From Agromyces cerinus (GTDB lineage Bacteria; Actinomycetota; Actinomycetes; Actinomycetales; Microbacteriaceae): a stretch of 64,000 nucleotides of DNA. The notes below the pieces were generated by a model. That model was not told where the DNA came from. It did not search any database and worked only from the letters and a program-made list of their open reading frames with translations. Position 1 is the first letter of the stretch. Every line of letters starts with the position of its first letter. This document shows, piece by piece, positions 48,762 through 56,660 of the stretch. The position numbers and the translations under genes were made by a program. The DNA is taken from assembly GCF_016907835.1 (NCBI RefSeq), contig NZ_JAFBCT010000001.1, positions 868,001-932,000 of the forward strand, given 5' to 3'.

Positions 48762-48811
48762 GCCGCAACGCTACCGTGCCGTTTCCGGCGGCTGAGAGAC
48801 ATCCGTGAATC

Positions 48812-48858
48812 TGACCGATCGTGCAGAAGCTGACCGATCGGTCAATTACCGTGGGTGC
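48812..48858 (+). promoter_or_regulatory. TetR operators and leaderless promoter of the exporter operon
   Basis: TGACCGATCGGTCA (48831-48844) is a perfect 14-bp palindrome. A half-matching copy, TGACCGATCG, lies 19 bases upstream at 48812-48821. TACCGT (48847-48852) is 6 nt before ATG 48859. The palindrome abuts the -10, so bound TetR would block transcription of its own operon. Confidence 0.75.
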
Positions 48859-49461
48859 ATGCCCTCCGATGCACCGGTTCCCTCCCGCCTGCGCGCCAGC
48901 GACGAGCTGCGCCAGGCCGCGCTCGAGCAGTTCGCGACCGTCGGTTTCGCGGCGAGCTCGCTGCAGCAGATCGCCGACCACGCGGGCTACGCGAAGTCGA
49001 GCGTGCTCTACCACTACGCCTCGAAGGAGGCCCTGCTCGAGGCCGCGATCGGCCCGTCGATCGACCTGCTCGAGACCCTGCTCGGCGACTTCGTCGCCGG
49101 CGGCCGTTCAGTGGCCGCGCAGGCGGTCTTCATCGAGCGCTTCGTCGACTTCCTGCTCGGCAACCGCCTCGCGGTGCACACCTTCGTGAACCAGGGCCAG
49201 TCGCTGCGCGGGTTGCCGGTCATCGAACGCGCGAACACCGCCATCCGCGGTCTCGCCGACTCGATCTGCGCCGACGACGCCAGCCTCGCCGAGCAGATGC
49301 GCTTCGGCGTGGCACTCGCCGGTGCGACCTACACGCTCGTCGCCGGCGCCACATTCCTCGAGGACGACGAGCAGCAGTTCGCCGACGCCGACGTGCGCGA
49401 CGCCCTCATCTCCGTGCTGTCCGAACTCCTGCTGACGGCCGACGGCCGCCCGACCCGATAG
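48859..49461 (+). CDS. TetR family regulator of the MMPL/YhgE operon
   Basis: 200 residues from ATG 48859. The HTH (about residues 10-60) contains ELRQAALEQFATVGFAASSL and QQIADHAGYAKSSVLYHYAS. The ligand domain follows with FIERFVDFLLGNRLAVHTFV and GVALAGATYTLVAGATFLED. It precedes the transporter genes by 8 bases, and a perfect palindrome covers its promoter, so it very likely represses itself and the exporter. The inducer would be an exported or toxic hydrophobic compound; this is inference. Confidence 0.9.
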   Translation: MPSDAPVPSRLRASDELRQAALEQFATVGFAASSLQQIADHAGYAKSSVLYHYASKEALLEAAIGPSIDLLETLLGDFVAGGRSVAAQAVFIERFVDFLLGNRLAVHTFVNQGQSLRGLPVIERANTAIRGLADSICADDASLAEQMRFGVALAGATYTLVAGATFLEDDEQQFADADVRDALISVLSELLLTADGRPTR

Positions 49462-49469
49462 GCAGACCC

Positions 49470-52355
49470 ATGGCTCTCCTCCTCCACCGCATCGGCCGGT
49501 TCGCGTTCCGCCGCGCCTGGTACGTCATCGTCGCCTGGGTGGTCCTGCTCGGCGGGCTGCTCGGCACCGGCCTCGCGCTCGGCGGCCAGTTGCAGGACTC
49601 CTTCGCCATCCCCGGCACGGAGTCGCAGACGGCGATCGACCAGCTCGCCGCCGTGTTCCCCGAGACCGCGGGCGCCTCGGCCAAGGCCGTCGTCGAAGCC
49701 CCCGACGGTGCGACCGTCGAGGCCGACTCGGCGCGCGACGCGATCGAGGCGATGGAGGCCGAGCTCGAACAGGTCGATGGCGTCGCGAGCGTGCTCGGCC
49801 CGTTCGACGAGTACGCGGGCGACCAGATCTCGGGCGACGGTCGCACCGCCTACATCCAGATCCAGTTCGACGGCCAGGTGACCGATGTCACCCCCGAGTC
49901 GCTCGAGGCCGTCGAGGCCACGGGCGAGCTCGGCACCGACGCCGGCCTCGCGGTGGCGTTCGGCGGCGACGTCTTCCAGGAGACGAGCTTCGGCCTGACG
50001 ATCACCGAGGTGTTCGGCGTGCTCTTCGCCGCGGTCGTGCTCATCATCACCTTCGGCTCCCTGCTCGCGGCCGGCATGCCGCTGCTGACCGCCCTCGTCG
50101 GCGTCGGCGCGGCCTTCGGCGGCATCTCCATCGTCGCCGCGTTCACGACGGTCTCGTCGACCGCGCCCATGCTCGCCGTCATGATCGGACTCGCGGTCGG
50201 CATCGACTACGCACTCTTCATCCTGTCCAGGCACCGAAACCAGCTCGCTCGCGGCCAGGACCCCGAGGAGTCGGCGGCCGAGGCGGTCGCGACCGCCGGC
50301 GGCGCCGTGGTCTTCGCGGGGCTCACCGTCATCATCGCGCTGCTCGGCCTCCTCGTCGTCGGCATCCCGTTCCTCAGCGTCATGGGCGTCGGGGCCGCGT
50401 TCGCCGTGCTCATCGCAGTGGCGGGCGCCGTCACCCTGCTGCCGGCGCTGCTCGGCATCTTCGGCCGCAAGCTCGTGCCGAAGCCGGGCAGTCGTGCCCA
50501 CCGCCGCGCGAACGCCGACGACGACAGCGGCAAGCGCACGATGGGTCGTCGCTGGGTCGACCTCGTGCTGAAGGCGCCCGTCGTGTTCCTCGTGATCGTG
50601 GTCGGCCTGCTCGGCGCCGCCGCGGTGCCGGCGCTCAGTCTCGACCTCAACCTGCCGAATGGCTCGGGCACCGAGGGCTCCAGCCAGCGCGAGGCCTACG
50701 AGATGATCGAAGACGGCTTCGGGCCCGGCTACAACGGCCCGCTCATCGTGACGGTCGACATCACCCAGACGACCGACATCTTCGGCGACCTCGACGCGAT
50801 CGGCGCCCGCATCGGCGAACTCGACGACGTCGCGTTCGTCGGTCAGGGGCTGCCGAACCCGACCGCGGACACGGCGATCATCCAGGTCATCCCCGAGAGC
50901 GCACCGGATGCCCCGGCGACGAAGGTGCTCGTCGAGAACATCCGCGAACTCGAGCCCTCGATCACCGCCGACTACGGCACGCCCATCGCCGTCACCGGCT
51001 ACACGGCCGTCGCCATCGACATCTCGAACCGACTCGCCGACGCGCTGATCCCGTTCGCGCTCATCGTCGTGGGGCTCTCGATCGTGCTGCTGCTCATGGT
51101 GTTCCGTTCGGTGTTCGTGCCGATCAAGGCCGCCCTCGGGTTCCTGCTCTCGGCGTTCGGGGCGATCGGCGTCACCGTCGCGATCTTCCAGTGGGGATGG
51201 TTCGCCGACCTGCTGCACGTCGAGCCCGGGCCGATCCTCAGCTTCCTGCCGATCCTGCTCATGGCGGTGCTCTTCGGCCTCGCCATGGACTACCAGGTGT
51301 TCCTCGTGTCGGGCATGCGCGAGGAGTTCGTGAAGACGGGTGACGCGCGCAAGTCGGTCGTGCACGGCTTCCAGCACGCCGCGCGCGTCGTCACCGCCGC
51401 CGCGCTCATCATGTTCTTCGTCTTCTTCGCCTTCGTGCCCGAAGGCGCGGGCGTGATCAAGGGCATCGCCTTCGCGCTCGCCGTGGGCGTCGCATTCGAC
51501 GCCTTCCTCGTTCGCATGACGCTCGTGCCCGCTGCCATGGCGCTCGCCGGCAAGGCGGCCTGGTGGCTGCCGAAGTGGCTCGCGAGGGTGCTGCCGAACG
51601 TCGACATCGAGGGTGAAGGGCTGCGCACCCACCTCGAACAGGAGGAGTGGGCCGCGTCCCGCCCCGCCGCCGTCAACGCCGAGGCCGCCGTCTTCGGGCT
51701 GCCCGAGCGACCGATCGGTCCGCTGACCGTCGAGGTGCCTGCCGGCGGCGTGCTCGTCGTGCAGGGCGAGGCCGTCGACCGCCGTGTCGTCTCCGCGACG
51801 CTCGCCGGCCGACTCGCGCCGGTCGGAGGTCGCCTCGCCGTGCTCGGCTCGCCGCTGCCCTCGGGCGCAGGAACGGTCATGCGCGGCGTCGCGATCGCCG
51901 AGGTCGCAGCGGATGCCGCGCCGGGCGGCACCGTCGGCGAGCTCATCGCCGGCCGACTCGACGCCACCCGCCCGTGGTACCGCATCGCGCCGTCCAACTC
52001 GCTCGTCCGAACCTGGACCGAGCGGGCGGCCGCAGCAGCCGGCCACGGCCCCGACGGGCCCCGGTTCACGACCGAGACCCCGCTCTCCGCCCTGGGCGTC
52101 GAAGCCCGCACGCTCGTCGCGGTCGCGGCGGCCCTCGCCGAGCGGCCGAAGGCCGTCGTCATCGACCTCGACGACGATCCGGGCTCGGCCACGGGCGGTC
52201 TCTGGCATGCGCTCGCCGCGCTCGTGCCCGCCCAGGTCACGGTGATCGTCGGCCTCGGCACGTCCGCGGTGTCGCCCGCGGTCTCGCCGCAGCTCGCGGC
52301 CCGCGGCATCCGCACCCTCGAACCCGTCTCGCGCACCCAGGAGGTCCTCCGATGA
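49470..52355 (+). CDS. MMPL transporter fused to a degenerate ABC-ATPase-like domain
   Basis: 961 residues. Residues 1-~725 are an MMPL/RND-type exporter with two six-helix halves: RFAFRRAWYVIVAWVVLLGG, LAVMIGLAVGIDYALFILSR (proton-relay Asp-Tyr), then FLPILLMAVLFGLAMDYQVF and GVAFDAFLVRMTLVPAAMAL. The last ~220 residues resemble an ABC nucleotide-binding domain in order: GPLTVEVPAGGVLVVQGEAV, then TLAGRLAPVGGRLAVLGSPL, a signature-like LSALGVEARTLVAVAAALAE near 871-890, and a Walker-B-like KAVVIDLDDDPGS near 893-905. Walker A is missing (VQGEAVDRRVV), so it is not expected to hydrolyse ATP. The stop overlaps the YhgE/Pip gene by 4 bases. Confidence 0.85.
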   Translation: MALLLHRIGRFAFRRAWYVIVAWVVLLGGLLGTGLALGGQLQDSFAIPGTESQTAIDQLAAVFPETAGASAKAVVEAPDGATVEADSARDAIEAMEAELEQVDGVASVLGPFDEYAGDQISGDGRTAYIQIQFDGQVTDVTPESLEAVEATGELGTDAGLAVAFGGDVFQETSFGLTITEVFGVLFAAVVLIITFGSLLAAGMPLLTALVGVGAAFGGISIVAAFTTVSSTAPMLAVMIGLAVGIDYALFILSRHRNQLARGQDPEESAAEAVATAGGAVVFAGLTVIIALLGLLVVGIPFLSVMGVGAAFAVLIAVAGAVTLLPALLGIFGRKLVPKPGSRAHRRANADDDSGKRTMGRRWVDLVLKAPVVFLVIVVGLLGAAAVPALSLDLNLPNGSGTEGSSQREAYEMIEDGFGPGYNGPLIVTVDITQTTDIFGDLDAIGARIGELDDVAFVGQGLPNPTADTAIIQVIPESAPDAPATKVLVENIRELEPSITADYGTPIAVTGYTAVAIDISNRLADALIPFALIVVGLSIVLLLMVFRSVFVPIKAALGFLLSAFGAIGVTVAIFQWGWFADLLHVEPGPILSFLPILLMAVLFGLAMDYQVFLVSGMREEFVKTGDARKSVVHGFQHAARVVTAAALIMFFVFFAFVPEGAGVIKGIAFALAVGVAFDAFLVRMTLVPAAMALAGKAAWWLPKWLARVLPNVDIEGEGLRTHLEQEEWAASRPAAVNAEAAVFGLPERPIGPLTVEVPAGGVLVVQGEAVDRRVVSATLAGRLAPVGGRLAVLGSPLPSGAGTVMRGVAIAEVAADAAPGGTVGELIAGRLDATRPWYRIAPSNSLVRTWTERAAAAAGHGPDGPRFTTETPLSALGVEARTLVAVAAALAERPKAVVIDLDDDPGSATGGLWHALAALVPAQVTVIVGLGTSAVSPAVSPQLAARGIRTLEPVSRTQEVLR

Positions 52356-54307
52356 GCACCCGACTCTCCCGACTCTTCGGTTCGACCCCCGCGCAGCGAC
52401 GCGTGCGCTTCGGCGTGCTGGTCGCCGCGGTCGTCGCCGTGCCGCTCGCCGTCGCCGGTCTCGTCTCGGGCGCCGTCGGCAGCGGCGGCGACAACCTCGA
52501 GCAGATCCCGGCCGTCGTCGTGAACAACGACGAGATGGTCACGATGACGCTGCCCGACGGCACCGAACAGCCCGTGCTCGCCGGCCGCTTGCTCGTGACC
52601 GAGCTGACCGACCCCGAGACCTCGGGATTCCAGTGGACGATCTCGAACGACGACGAGGCGGCCGACCTGCTCGCTTCGGGTGACGCGTACGCGGTCCTCA
52701 CCATTCCCTCCGACTTCTCGGAGTCGGTGACCTCGCTCTCGGGTGCAGACCCGACGCAGGCGAACCTCGACATCCGCACCGACGACGCCCACGGCTACCT
52801 CGCCGGCTCGGTCGCGCAGTCGGTCGGCGACGCGATGTCGGCGACCTTCGGCCGCGAGCTGACCGCGCAGTACCTCGAGGGGCTGTACACGAACCTCGCG
52901 ACGATGGGCGGTTCGCTCGGCGACGCCGCCGACGGCGCGACGCAGCTCTCGAGCGGTGCCGGCTCCCTCGCGGGCGGCCTCGGCACGCTCTCGAGCGGCG
53001 TCGCCACGGCCTCGAGCGGCGCAGCGGATGCCGCGAGCGGAGCCCATGAGTACGCCGCGGGCGTCACCCAGTACACGCAGGGCGTCGACGGCCTGGCGAG
53101 CGGTCTCGGGGAGCTGAGCACCGGTGCGGCCGGGCTCGACGAGATCTCGAACCAGTGGGATGCCTACACCGGCGGCATCGCGAAGGGAGTGGCCACCGTC
53201 GACGGCTACCTCGGGCCGGCGTCGGAGCAGCTCGCGAGCATCATCGCCGACCACCCCGAACTCGTCGAGGAGTACCCCGAACTCGCCAGGATCCCCGCGA
53301 CGATCGATGGTGTCCGCACCCAGCTCGGCCAGCTCTCGACCGGGGGGCAGCAGCTTTCGGCGGCGTCTCGCGGCGCGATCGACGGCATCCAGGGCGGCAT
53401 CGACCAGTCGGCCGCCGGAGCAGCCCAGCTCGCCGCCGGCTCCAGCGGCATCCGCGACGGCGCGAACGGCCTCGCCACGGGTCTCGACGAGCTCGCCGGC
53501 GGTCTCGGTGCGCTCCAGGGCGGTGCAGCGGATGCCGCGAGCGGCGCCACGAAGCTCGCGAGCGGTGCCGACACCCTCGCCTCGGGGCTCACGTCCGGCG
53601 CGGAGAGTGCGACCGCGCTCACCGACATCGACGCGTCGAAGACCGCCGACGTCATCGCCGAACCGGTCACGGTCGACGCGACCCGCGACCACGAGATCGC
53701 GGGCGTCGGCGACGTCATCGGCATGCTCTTCGTGCCGGTCGGCCTGTGGCTCGGCGCACTCGCGCTCTTCCTCGTGTTCCGACCCTTCGGTCGTGAGGCC
53801 CTGCGCTCGACGGCCTCGACGGGCGGGCTCGTCTGGCGCACGCTCGCGCGGGCGGGCCTCATCGCCCTCGCGCAGGCCGTCGCGGTCGTGCTGCTCCTGC
53901 ACGGCACCATGGACGTCAGCTGGAGCCTGCTCCCGCAGACGCTCGCGTTCGCGGCCCTGCTCGCGCTCGTGTTCACCTCGCTGCACGCCTTCCTCACGGT
54001 CTGGCTCGGCCGGGCGGGGCTGCTCGTCTCGCTCGTGCTCGTCGCGTTGCAGCTCACCGCGTCGGGCGGGCTGTACCCGGTCGAGGTGCTGAGCGGCCCG
54101 TACCAGGCGATCAGTCCGTTCCTGCCACTCACCTGGGCGGTGCAGGGCATGCAGTTCATCGTCTCGGGCGCCGCCGGGGGATCGGTCGCGATGGCCGCGG
54201 GCGTGCTCGTCGTCTTCGGTCTCGTGGGAGTGCTCGGCACGGCGCTCGTCGTCGGCCGGCGCCGCGGCATCCGCTCGATCGGGTTCGCGGCGGCCGCACT
54301 CGGCTGA
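52352..54307 (+). CDS. YhgE/Pip-family ABC-2-type permease
   Basis: 651 residues. One N-terminal helix (FGVLVAAVVAVPLAVAGLVS) precedes a large external domain. It contains IPAVVVNNDEMVTM and long repeats of the form (L/A)-x-x-G spaced by seven to eleven residues (SLAGGLGTLSSGVATASSGA and similar), predicted helical. The C-terminal ABC-2-like membrane part has helices from about residue 455 (IGMLFVPVGLWLGALALFLV, LARAGLIALAQAVAVVLLL, LVLVALQLTASGGLYPVEVL). YhgE/Pip proteins are phage-infection or ESX-type-toxin-linked permeases. It is translated together with the MMPL fusion. Confidence 0.88.
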   Translation: MSTRLSRLFGSTPAQRRVRFGVLVAAVVAVPLAVAGLVSGAVGSGGDNLEQIPAVVVNNDEMVTMTLPDGTEQPVLAGRLLVTELTDPETSGFQWTISNDDEAADLLASGDAYAVLTIPSDFSESVTSLSGADPTQANLDIRTDDAHGYLAGSVAQSVGDAMSATFGRELTAQYLEGLYTNLATMGGSLGDAADGATQLSSGAGSLAGGLGTLSSGVATASSGAADAASGAHEYAAGVTQYTQGVDGLASGLGELSTGAAGLDEISNQWDAYTGGIAKGVATVDGYLGPASEQLASIIADHPELVEEYPELARIPATIDGVRTQLGQLSTGGQQLSAASRGAIDGIQGGIDQSAAGAAQLAAGSSGIRDGANGLATGLDELAGGLGALQGGAADAASGATKLASGADTLASGLTSGAESATALTDIDASKTADVIAEPVTVDATRDHEIAGVGDVIGMLFVPVGLWLGALALFLVFRPFGREALRSTASTGGLVWRTLARAGLIALAQAVAVVLLLHGTMDVSWSLLPQTLAFAALLALVFTSLHAFLTVWLGRAGLLVSLVLVALQLTASGGLYPVEVLSGPYQAISPFLPLTWAVQGMQFIVSGAAGGSVAMAAGVLVVFGLVGVLGTALVVGRRRGIRSIGFAAAALG

Positions 54308-54413: not shown

Positions 54414-56660
54414 ATGAACGCCCCTGGATCATCACGCGACGAGCTCTACGTCGACGCCGTCTACGACATGATCGTGGTCTCGAACCGACTGCCCGTCGAC
54501 TACCTGCGCGGCCCCGACGGTGAGACCACGTGGAAGAGCTCGCCCGGCGGGCTCGTCACCGCGCTCGAACCCGTCATGCGCGCCGCCGACGGCGCCTGGG
54601 TCGGCTGGGCCGGCGTCGCCGACCGCGAGTTCGACCCGTTCGAGTACGACGGCATCAACATCATCCCGGTGCCGCTGTCGGAGTCCGAGCTCGAGGAGTA
54701 CTACGAGGGCTTCTCCAACGACACCCTCTGGCCGCTCTACCACGACGTCATCGCACCGCCCTCCTTCCACCGGGAGTGGTGGGACGCGTACGTGCGGGTG
54801 AACCGCCGCTTCGCCGAGGCGGCAGCGCGCGCGGCATCGCCCGGCGCCGTCGTGTGGGTGCAGGACTACCAGCTGCAGCTCGTGCCGCGCATGCTCCGCG
54901 AGAAGCGCCCCGACCTCGTGATCGGCTTCTTCAACCACATCCCGTTCCCGGCATACGGCATCTACTCGCAGCTGCCGTGGCGGCGACAGGTGCTCGACGG
55001 ACTGCTCGGGGCCGACGTCATCGGGTTCCAGCGCGCCGCCGACGCCGGCAACTTCACGCGCGCGGTACGCCGGCTCTTCGGCTACGCGACGCGCGGCAGC
55101 GTGCTCGACGTGCCGGGCCCCGACGGCGAGATGCGGCACGTCGTCGCCCGGCAGTTCCCGATCTCGATCGACTCGGCCGGGTTCGAGGAACTCGCGCGGA
55201 GCCCCGAGGTGCAGGCGCGCGCCCACGAGATCCGGGAGAGCCTCGGCAACCCCGAGACGATCATGCTCGGCGTCGACCGCCTCGACTACACGAAGGGCAT
55301 CCGGCACCGGCTGAAGGCCTTCGGCGAGCTGCTGCGCGACGGCCGGATGTCGGTCGAAGACGTCACCCTCGTGCAGGTCGCGAGCCCGTCGCGCGAGCGC
55401 GTCGAGACGTACCGCCAGCTCCGTGACGAGATCGAGCTCATGGTCGGGCGGCTGAACGGCGACTACTCCACCCTCGGCCACCAGGCCATCGCCTACCTCC
55501 ACCACGGCTACCCGCGTGAGGAGATGGTCGCGCTCTACCTCGCCGCCGACGTCATGCTCGTGACGGCCCTCCGCGACGGCATGAACCTCGTCGCGAAGGA
55601 GTTCGTGGCCTGCAGCTTCGACGACGACGGCGTGCTCGTGCTCAGCGAGTTCACCGGCGCATCCGACGAGCTCCGTCAGGCGATCCTCGTGAATCCTCAC
55701 GACATCGAGGGGCTGAAGGACGCGATGGTCGAGGCGGCGCAGATGCCGCGCAAGGAGCGGGCGCGGCGCATGCGGGCGCTCCGCAAGCGCGTGCGCGAGA
55801 ACGACGTGGCGAAGTGGTCGTCGACCTTCCTGAAGACCCTCACCGGCGCGGGCATCATCGCCTCCGGCGTTCCCGACGGGCTGGATGCCGCGATCTCGCG
55901 CCTGGCCGACACCGACCGGCTGCTCGTGGCGCTCGACTTCGACGGCACGCTCGCACCGCTCGTCGACCGGCCGGAGGACGCGCGGGCCACCAATCGCGCC
56001 CGCGCTGCGATCGAACGCCTCGCCGCGAGCGACGACACCCGCGTCGCGATCGTCTCCGGGCGGGCGCTCGAGAGCCTGAAGGAAGTCGCCGATCCGCCGG
56101 CGGGAACCCTCATGAGCGGCTCGCACGGTGTGGAGCTGCAGCTCGACGGCGGCGGCGTCACGATCGACCTCCGCGACGGCGAGCTCGCGGCGCTCGAACA
56201 CCTCACCAGCGTGCTCGACGACGTCGCCGCGAGCATCGACGGCGCATGGGTCGAGTGGAAGCCCGCAGGGCTCGCCCTGCACACGCGCAAGGTCGCGCCC
56301 GATGCCGCGAGCGACCTGCAGCGGGCCGCCAGGGCGCGCGTCGAGGCCGAGATCCCCGAGCTCACGGTGCGCAGCGGCAAGGGCGTGATCGAGTTCTCGG
56401 TGCGCCCGAGCGACAAGGGGGAGGCGCTCACCCGGCTCCGCCAGCACGCGGGCGCCAGCGCCGTCATCTACGTCGGCGACGACGTCACCGACGAAGACGC
56501 GTTCGCCGCCCTCGAGTCGGAGGATCTGGGGGTGAAGGTCGGTCAGGGCAGGTCGCTCGCGGCTCATCGTGTGCGCAGTCCCGACGACGTCGCCGACCTG
56601 CTCGAACGCCTCGCCGATGCGCGTGAAGCGACGCACGGGGGCCCCTCGCGCTGGCCATAG
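54414..56660 (+). CDS. otsA: Trehalose-6-phosphate synthase/phosphatase fusion
   Basis: 748 residues. Residues ~18-475 are a GT20 synthase using UDP-glucose: [77 protein letters not shown] and [15 protein letters not shown]. Residues ~495-748 are an HAD phosphatase, with [20 protein letters not shown] near 504-523, ILVSGR-like [14 protein letters not shown] and [17 protein letters not shown]. It makes trehalose in two steps in one chain, an otsA-otsB fusion. Actinobacteria more often keep these as separate genes. AGGAGG lies upstream of the ATG. It ends nine bases before ilvD. Confidence 0.94.

Follow-up and report, generated by a model that had tools for sequence, protein, structure and literature searches.

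In a 64,000-nucleotide stretch of the Agromyces cerinus genome (contig NZ_JAFBCT010000001.1, positions 868,001 to 932,000; hereafter the window), we found a gene whose product appears to be an MMPL-family pump of the resistance-nodulation-division (RND) superfamily, fused to a degenerate ATP-binding cassette (ABC) nucleotide-binding domain (NBD) that would belong to the YhgE/Pip permease encoded next to it. This C-terminal domain, here called the pseudo-NBD, is predicted to keep the ABC fold and to be unable to run an ATP cycle. An initial annotation of the window had proposed that an ABC-ATPase-like domain, now dead, came to this protein by fusion and is tied to a YhgE/Pip permease, and this proposal is now supported by fold, motif loss, kinship, and phylogenetic trees. 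The features of the two genes are as follows:

49470..52355, + strand: MMPL (RND superfamily) protein with C-terminal pseudo-NBD, 961 aa, stop codon included; PF03176 E 7.6e-89
51660..52334, + strand: predicted pseudo-NBD (ABC-ATPase fold without catalytic motifs), residues ~731-955
51765..51785, + strand: Walker A position by alignment, GEAVDRR, residues 766-772; P-loop absent
52089..52106, + strand: ABC signature position by alignment, ALGVEA, residues 874-879
52152..52175, + strand: Walker B position by alignment, AVVIDLDD, residues 895-902; Asp present, catalytic Glu gone
52352..52355, + strand: ATGA overlap (4 nt) of the MMPL stop and the YhgE start, read from the sequence, with AGGAGG ahead at 52339-52344
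52352..54307, + strand: YhgE/Pip family ABC-2-type permease, 651 aa; TIGR03062, TIGR03061, and PF12698 above cut-offs

A degenerate NBD at the end of an MMPL protein

The earlier reading of the sequence had noted that the tail of the MMPL protein follows the order of an ABC NBD and has no Walker A motif, and alignment, profile, and fold all confirm it. The tail has a confident ABC NBD fold, and its nearest folds are the NBDs of ABC-2 and type V-like exporters, namely MlaF, FtsE, LolD, and MacB. The signal needs a profile to be seen: the tail searched as a single sequence against Pfam, NCBIfam, and the PDB gave no match, and the MMPL protein has no match to the Pfam ABC_tran model, PF00005. Among relatives of the tail, 11/29 match PF00005 at E<=0.1, the best at 5.2e-4. 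Among named proteins, those closest to the tail come from Agromyces (96%), and an alignment of 29 diverse tails holds 15 invariant columns with a mean column identity of 48%. A chance resemblance to an ABC NBD is ruled out by the profile, the fold, and the homologues taken together.

The motifs on which ATP hydrolysis depends are a different matter. Where the Walker A P-loop should read GxxxxGK[ST], the tail reads GEAVDRR, and the P-loop is absent from all 72 rows of the Microbacteriaceae loci L103-L182; the lost site is itself patterned in these loci, beginning with G in 72/72 rows and ending with RR in 68/72. The tail reads ALGVEA in place of the LSGGQ signature and lacks the Walker-B catalytic Glu. 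As such, the only NBD linked to this permease is predicted to be without all of its catalytic motifs, which would leave the ABC-2-type permease with no competent linked ATPase.

The body of the protein is that of an MMPL transporter, scoring 298.4 bits over two stretches against PF03176, above the curated cut-off, and matching MmpL3 structures over residues ~10-713. It falls far short of the MmpL3 equivalog NF052608 (206.7 bits against a cut-off of 1400). The pairs D246-Y247 and D607-Y608 are invariant in an alignment of 66 relatives and correspond to the Asp251/Tyr252 and Asp640/Tyr641 pairs that an excerpt of PMC11481577 gives as the proton relay of MmpL3. Judged by these residues, the Asp-Tyr relay is predicted to be intact, and we read the MMPL part as a putative proton-driven pump.

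The permease passes both YhgE/Pip models (TIGR03062 at 152.5 bits and TIGR03061 at 108.6 bits) and the ABC-2 model PF12698 (52 bits, cut-off 31.6), and lies far from EsaA of type VII secretion (TIGR03929, 26.6 bits against a cut-off of 122). A profile search for a solved YhgE structure matched only coiled coils and chemoreceptors; since these matches are confined to the heptad-repeat part of the protein, we read them as composition.

Separate NBDs upstream of YhgE/Pip permeases

The tail is best read as a member of a degenerate NBD family of Actinomycetota whose coding sequences, in many cases genes of their own, lie directly ahead of those for YhgE/Pip permeases. The A. cerinus genome itself has such a gene: the tail sequence finds a separate NBD (G000:C1:3355268-3355807, E 8.6e-7, 30% identity) immediately ahead of the genome's second YhgE, and a profile of the fused domain returned only two matches in this genome, the tail and the separate paralogue (E 4e-25; 14/85 candidates scored). 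In this second locus (L044, G000:C1:3353118-3355816), the YhgE and the separate NBD are followed by a TetR-like gene. The NBD gene spans G000:C1:3355247-3355816, and its product has GPAGSGRT at Walker A, where Arg replaces Lys, with FFDQ at the Walker B position. The PF00005 cut-off is passed by 7/10 separate YhgE-linked NBDs. In the first 22 separate-NBD loci checked, YhgE adjoins the NBD in all 22 and MMPL is present in none. Two sets of candidates were set aside, a supposed fusion (L091) that turned out to be an ordinary ABC exporter half and four loci from weak tail matches (L056-L059) that hold ordinary ABC ATPases.

The census of motifs in YhgE-linked domains rests on an alignment of 216 rows, comprising 89 fused domains outside the Aeromicrobium set, 74 of Aeromicrobium type, 3 short fusions, and 50 separate domains, one of which (L160) is a disrupted fused gene, so that the true count of separate domains is 49. 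Eleven duplicate rows were dropped, together with 3 fused and 10 Aeromicrobium-type rows with no recognisable linker pattern. SGG and the Walker-B Glu each occur in 0/216 YhgE-linked rows, whereas 4/4 ordinary ABC controls have both. A survey of relatives for separate ATPases had been suggested alongside the initial annotation, and it does find separate NBDs ahead of YhgE, but ones without LSGGQ and the Walker-B Glu.

The P-loop is more variable. It is present in 2 of the 89 fused rows (L268 and L270, which are Aeromicrobium-like) and absent in 87, and the signature segment is also missing in 14/89. Aeromicrobium-type MMPL-NBD fusions carry GxxxxGK[ST] in 72/74 rows by alignment and in 81/84 by pattern. 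Among the short fusions, P0187 (Microlunatus lacustris) and P0185 have a P-loop and no signature segment, the reverse of Agromyces, and P0186 (Microbacterium) has neither. The 50 separate rows, counting L160, divide into 11 with GK[ST], 25 with GR[ST], and 14 with neither; this conserved Lys-to-Arg change is seen in many separate NBDs, e.g., L234, L262, and L272-L275. In L083, L085-L090, L092-L094, and L278-L281, the signature-bearing segment is wholly deleted, and the minimal core that is left still pairs with YhgE.

Pairing with YhgE

The loci examined are not a random sample, as L044-L063, L083-L102, and L103-L182 were chosen for a matching domain or MMPL end; only the phylum and class surveys start from YhgE, with 20 regions picked from each list. 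YhgE directly follows the MMPL stop in 75 of the 80 named fused loci; 4 others stop at a contig edge, and the last is L160 (Clavibacter michiganensis CASJ009), in which the MMPL frame is broken within the pseudo-NBD and the YhgE match starts at the usual place. This break may be a sequencing error or a real loss. Order-level candidates were MMPL fusions in 11/12 loci, including families beyond Microbacteriaceae; YhgE accompanies 10 of these fusions, and the eleventh locus stops at a contig edge.

Starting from YhgE, the class survey returned a separate NBD in front of the permease in 14/20 regions (weak in L264) and a fused MMPL-NBD in the other 6; an MMPL without an NBD ahead of YhgE occurred in 0/20. 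The 20 regions of the phylum survey comprise 11 with an NBD ahead of YhgE, 8 with YhgE and no NBD, and 1 with no YhgE above the cut-off. Six of the 8 NBD-less regions (L224-L226 and L229-L231, from phylum members outside the class) are tandem YhgE pairs.

Evolutionary history of the fusion

We compared trees of the permease and of the domain. The permease tree of 58 rows omits 22 locus labels, including the long or awkward L227, L228, L063, L281, and L174, and has Microbacteriaceae thinned. Here, the MMPL-linked YhgE proteins form one group with support of 96/97, recovered in 100% of 200 bootstrap trees. In the domain tree, the fused domains likewise form one group, with a Shimodaira-Hasegawa-like approximate likelihood ratio test value (SH-aLRT) of 89. 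The neighbours of the fused group are alike in both trees, namely the separate NBD-YhgE loci L047, L049, L052, L061, and L099-L102, in which GK[ST] is kept in 8/8 NBDs. Within the fused group, the P-loop-bearing Aeromicrobium forms branch first in the 58-row permease tree (the rest grouping at 98/96), with weak agreement from the domain tree (79). At least 4 changes of P-loop state fall on the permease tree and at least 5 on the domain tree.

The reduced permease tree and the domain tree thus suggest a single fusion of MMPL to a two-gene NBD-YhgE set, and the motif census adds that this set was already without the signature and the Glu when it gained MMPL. Since the Aeromicrobium fusions retain Walker A, the fused domain would descend from a nucleotide-binding form; the P-loop was probably lost after the fusion, and more than once, and the helical subdomain also appears to have been lost after the fusion in some lineages. 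Two earlier ideas must be given up accordingly. The initial annotation had supposed an ancestral set of three genes (MMPL, ATPase, and permease), yet an unfused trio was found in 0/47 separate-NBD loci (0/22, 0/11, and 0/14) within stretches of 5 to 14 kb, which a more distant MMPL would escape; with MMPL in none of these loci and the trees pointing to a two-gene set, we dropped the trio. It had also supposed that the ATPase died after the fusion, but LSGGQ and the Walker-B Glu are missing from the separate NBDs as well (0/49), which leaves as later losses only that of the P-loop and, for certain lineages, that of the helical subdomain.

Across ten Agromyces comparisons, the ratio of nonsynonymous to synonymous substitution rates (dN/dS) of the pseudo-NBD ranges from 0.19 to 0.76 and is below 1 in all ten. 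Distances between the domains follow those of YhgE beyond what the MMPL body accounts for (partial r 0.47, 0/2000 permutations). The selection and distance data fit a domain that still works but is less tightly constrained, and they stop short of proving contact with YhgE.

A proposed mechanism and its alternatives

The tails of MMPL proteins lie in the cytoplasm, which is also the side on which ABC permeases carry their NBDs. On balance, we think that the pseudo-NBD probably tethers the RND pump onto the YhgE/Pip permease, with proton flux moving a substrate together with YhgE or to it. The pseudo-NBD would most likely occupy the NBD seat on the cytoplasmic face of YhgE and so tie the MMPL pump to it; proton flux through the Asp-Tyr relay of MMPL would then move a hydrophobic or lipid-like substrate, either jointly with YhgE or handed on to it, such that the pump might drive YhgE or might simply pass substrate along. 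The computed basis for this proposal is the fold, the missing motifs, an origin from a YhgE-linked NBD that bore a P-loop, a single fusion in the reduced permease tree and the domain tree, and constant pairing with YhgE; docking, a shared substrate, energy coupling, and the direction of transport are what we infer. A proton pump coupled structurally to the permease would be a plausible arrangement. A stronger version, which we put forward tentatively and would sooner doubt than believe, has a hybrid RND-ABC machine in which MMPL drives the cycle of the ABC-2-type permease through the pseudo-NBD, which would retain the NBD seat without the ATP cycle: canonical ATP hydrolysis would have disappeared from the NBD-linked YhgE/Pip lineage of Actinomycetota ahead of the fusion, by which the proton gradient would have taken the place of ATP as energy source.

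Several observations weigh against the tether or against the history proposed for it. In the full YhgE tree of 92 rows, the MMPL-linked permeases stand together save for two separate-NBD rows on a long branch (L227 and L228), which nest inside the group, and the tree of the MMPL body does not have the P-loop-bearing forms at its base. The dN/dS of the pseudo-NBD exceeds that of the MMPL body in 9/10 Agromyces comparisons, and MMPL-body distances follow those of YhgE more strongly (0.72) than the domain distances do. In some lineages (14/89 fused rows and 3/3 short fusions), a deletion has removed the helical subdomain and with it the signature segment, so the NBD surface is not needed in full. 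Lastly, no NBD was detected ahead of 14 YhgE frames in 8 phylum-survey loci (a count that excludes L170, which is fused with YhgE adjacent, and that includes some regions twice), and YhgE can thus work without one.

Some of this would suit a tail that docks on YhgE only as a holder or regulator acting on gating, assembly, or stability, with MMPL and YhgE transporting separately and YhgE perhaps passive or ion-driven. A conserved fold with mosaic loss of the P-loop and helical subdomain sits more easily with a scaffold than with a moving part, and the use of ion gradients by ABC membrane parts is discussed for the ABC exporter LmrA, described as able to draw on such gradients as well, in excerpts of PMC6155054 and PMC2704374. 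Nevertheless, we regard this as unlikely, because on its own it does not account for why the fused partner is a proton-driven pump and why YhgE is its constant company in the loci examined. ATP might instead power YhgE if the pseudo-NBD formed a half-active heterodimer with an intact ABC ATPase from elsewhere in the genome, and there are ABC exporters, such as PatAB, that are heterodimers in which one of the sites is degenerate. We consider this improbable: no other gene for an ABC ATPase was seen among open reading frames (ORFs) of at least 120 aa between the TetR-like gene and the next gene of the window, and the separate YhgE-linked NBDs also lack the signature and the Glu, from which we take it that no intact partner travels with them.

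That the tail binds some other ligand, as a sensor or lipid-responsive domain uninvolved in docking, could draw on the conserved basic loop GxxxxRR that stands in place of the P-loop. The odds seem to us quite poor, as its closest relatives are separate NBDs ahead of YhgE and the permease and domain trees agree, which argues that the partnership with YhgE predates the fusion. We give hardly any credence to a decaying, functionless relic. The catalytic motifs are gone and the tail evolves faster than the MMPL body, as a relic would, yet the dN/dS below 1 in every comparison, the invariant columns, the shared seven-residue loop ending in RR, and the confident fold all speak of a retained domain. 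A role in defence was also considered and was dropped, PADLOC having matched neither the MMPL-NBD protein nor YhgE.

Relation to known systems

The A. cerinus protein shares with MmpL3 and other MMPL-RND transporters the matching body and the Asp-Tyr pairs; it differs from MmpL3 in failing the equivalog model, in its ABC-fold tail, and in having a YhgE gene next to it. To our knowledge, the tail of MmpL3 is no NBD. Compared with the NBDs of ABC-2 and type V-like exporters, the tail lacks Walker A, LSGGQ, and the catalytic Glu and is fused to a member of another transporter superfamily. The Aeromicrobium fusions have the same order of MMPL-NBD then YhgE (L268 and L270) and differ in keeping Walker A and in precomputed PF00005 matches in 82/84 proteins; at the Walker-B position they read DD in place of DE. 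They are annotated as 'MMPL family transporter' or, once, as 'ABC transporter, ATP-binding protein'.

The open-licence literature of PubMed Central (preprints and subscription papers excluded) yielded no description of an MMPL-NBD fusion or of a pseudo-NBD partner of YhgE. An excerpt of PMC4999554 describes the YhgE/PIP domain as having no known function and makes no mention of a linked pseudo-NBD. The component families are known ones; what seems to us a new kind of architecture, so far as we have seen, is the union of an RND pump with an ABC-2 permease's pseudo-motor; our claim of novelty covers the architecture, and the mechanism is a proposal.

RND pumps and ABC transporters are usually held apart as different classes with different energy sources. 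If the proposal is right, the fusion would be a natural experiment in which an ABC-type permease has had its source of power exchanged, and the YhgE/Pip family, which lacks a function according to that same excerpt of PMC4999554, would gain a dedicated partner. Natural variants would also part nucleotide binding from docking: Aeromicrobium forms have the P-loop, Microlunatus forms have it without the signature segment, Agromyces forms are the reverse, and Microbacterium forms have neither.

Gene neighbourhood

Two further genes flank the pair in the window:

48805..49461, + strand: TetR-like regulator upstream of the MMPL gene, from an ORF; start codon unsettled
54414..56660, + strand: OtsA/OtsB-like trehalose-6-phosphate synthase/phosphatase gene, from an ORF, given for context

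We take the upstream gene to be TetR-like from its sequence; a match to it lies upstream, near MMPL, in 77/77 loci having at least 900 nt on that side. The downstream gene, which we presume from its sequence to be OtsA/OtsB-like, lies behind YhgE in the same orientation, both in the window and in 45/80 related loci (L103-L180; 67/80 have more than 4.5 kb downstream), and these loci span Agromyces, Cryobacterium, Leifsonia, and other genera. The substrate exported by MmpL3, trehalose monomycolate, is a trehalose lipid. By analogy with MmpL3, one thought is that the pump and this neighbouring gene might share a trehalose-linked substrate, and plain synteny would explain their proximity equally well.

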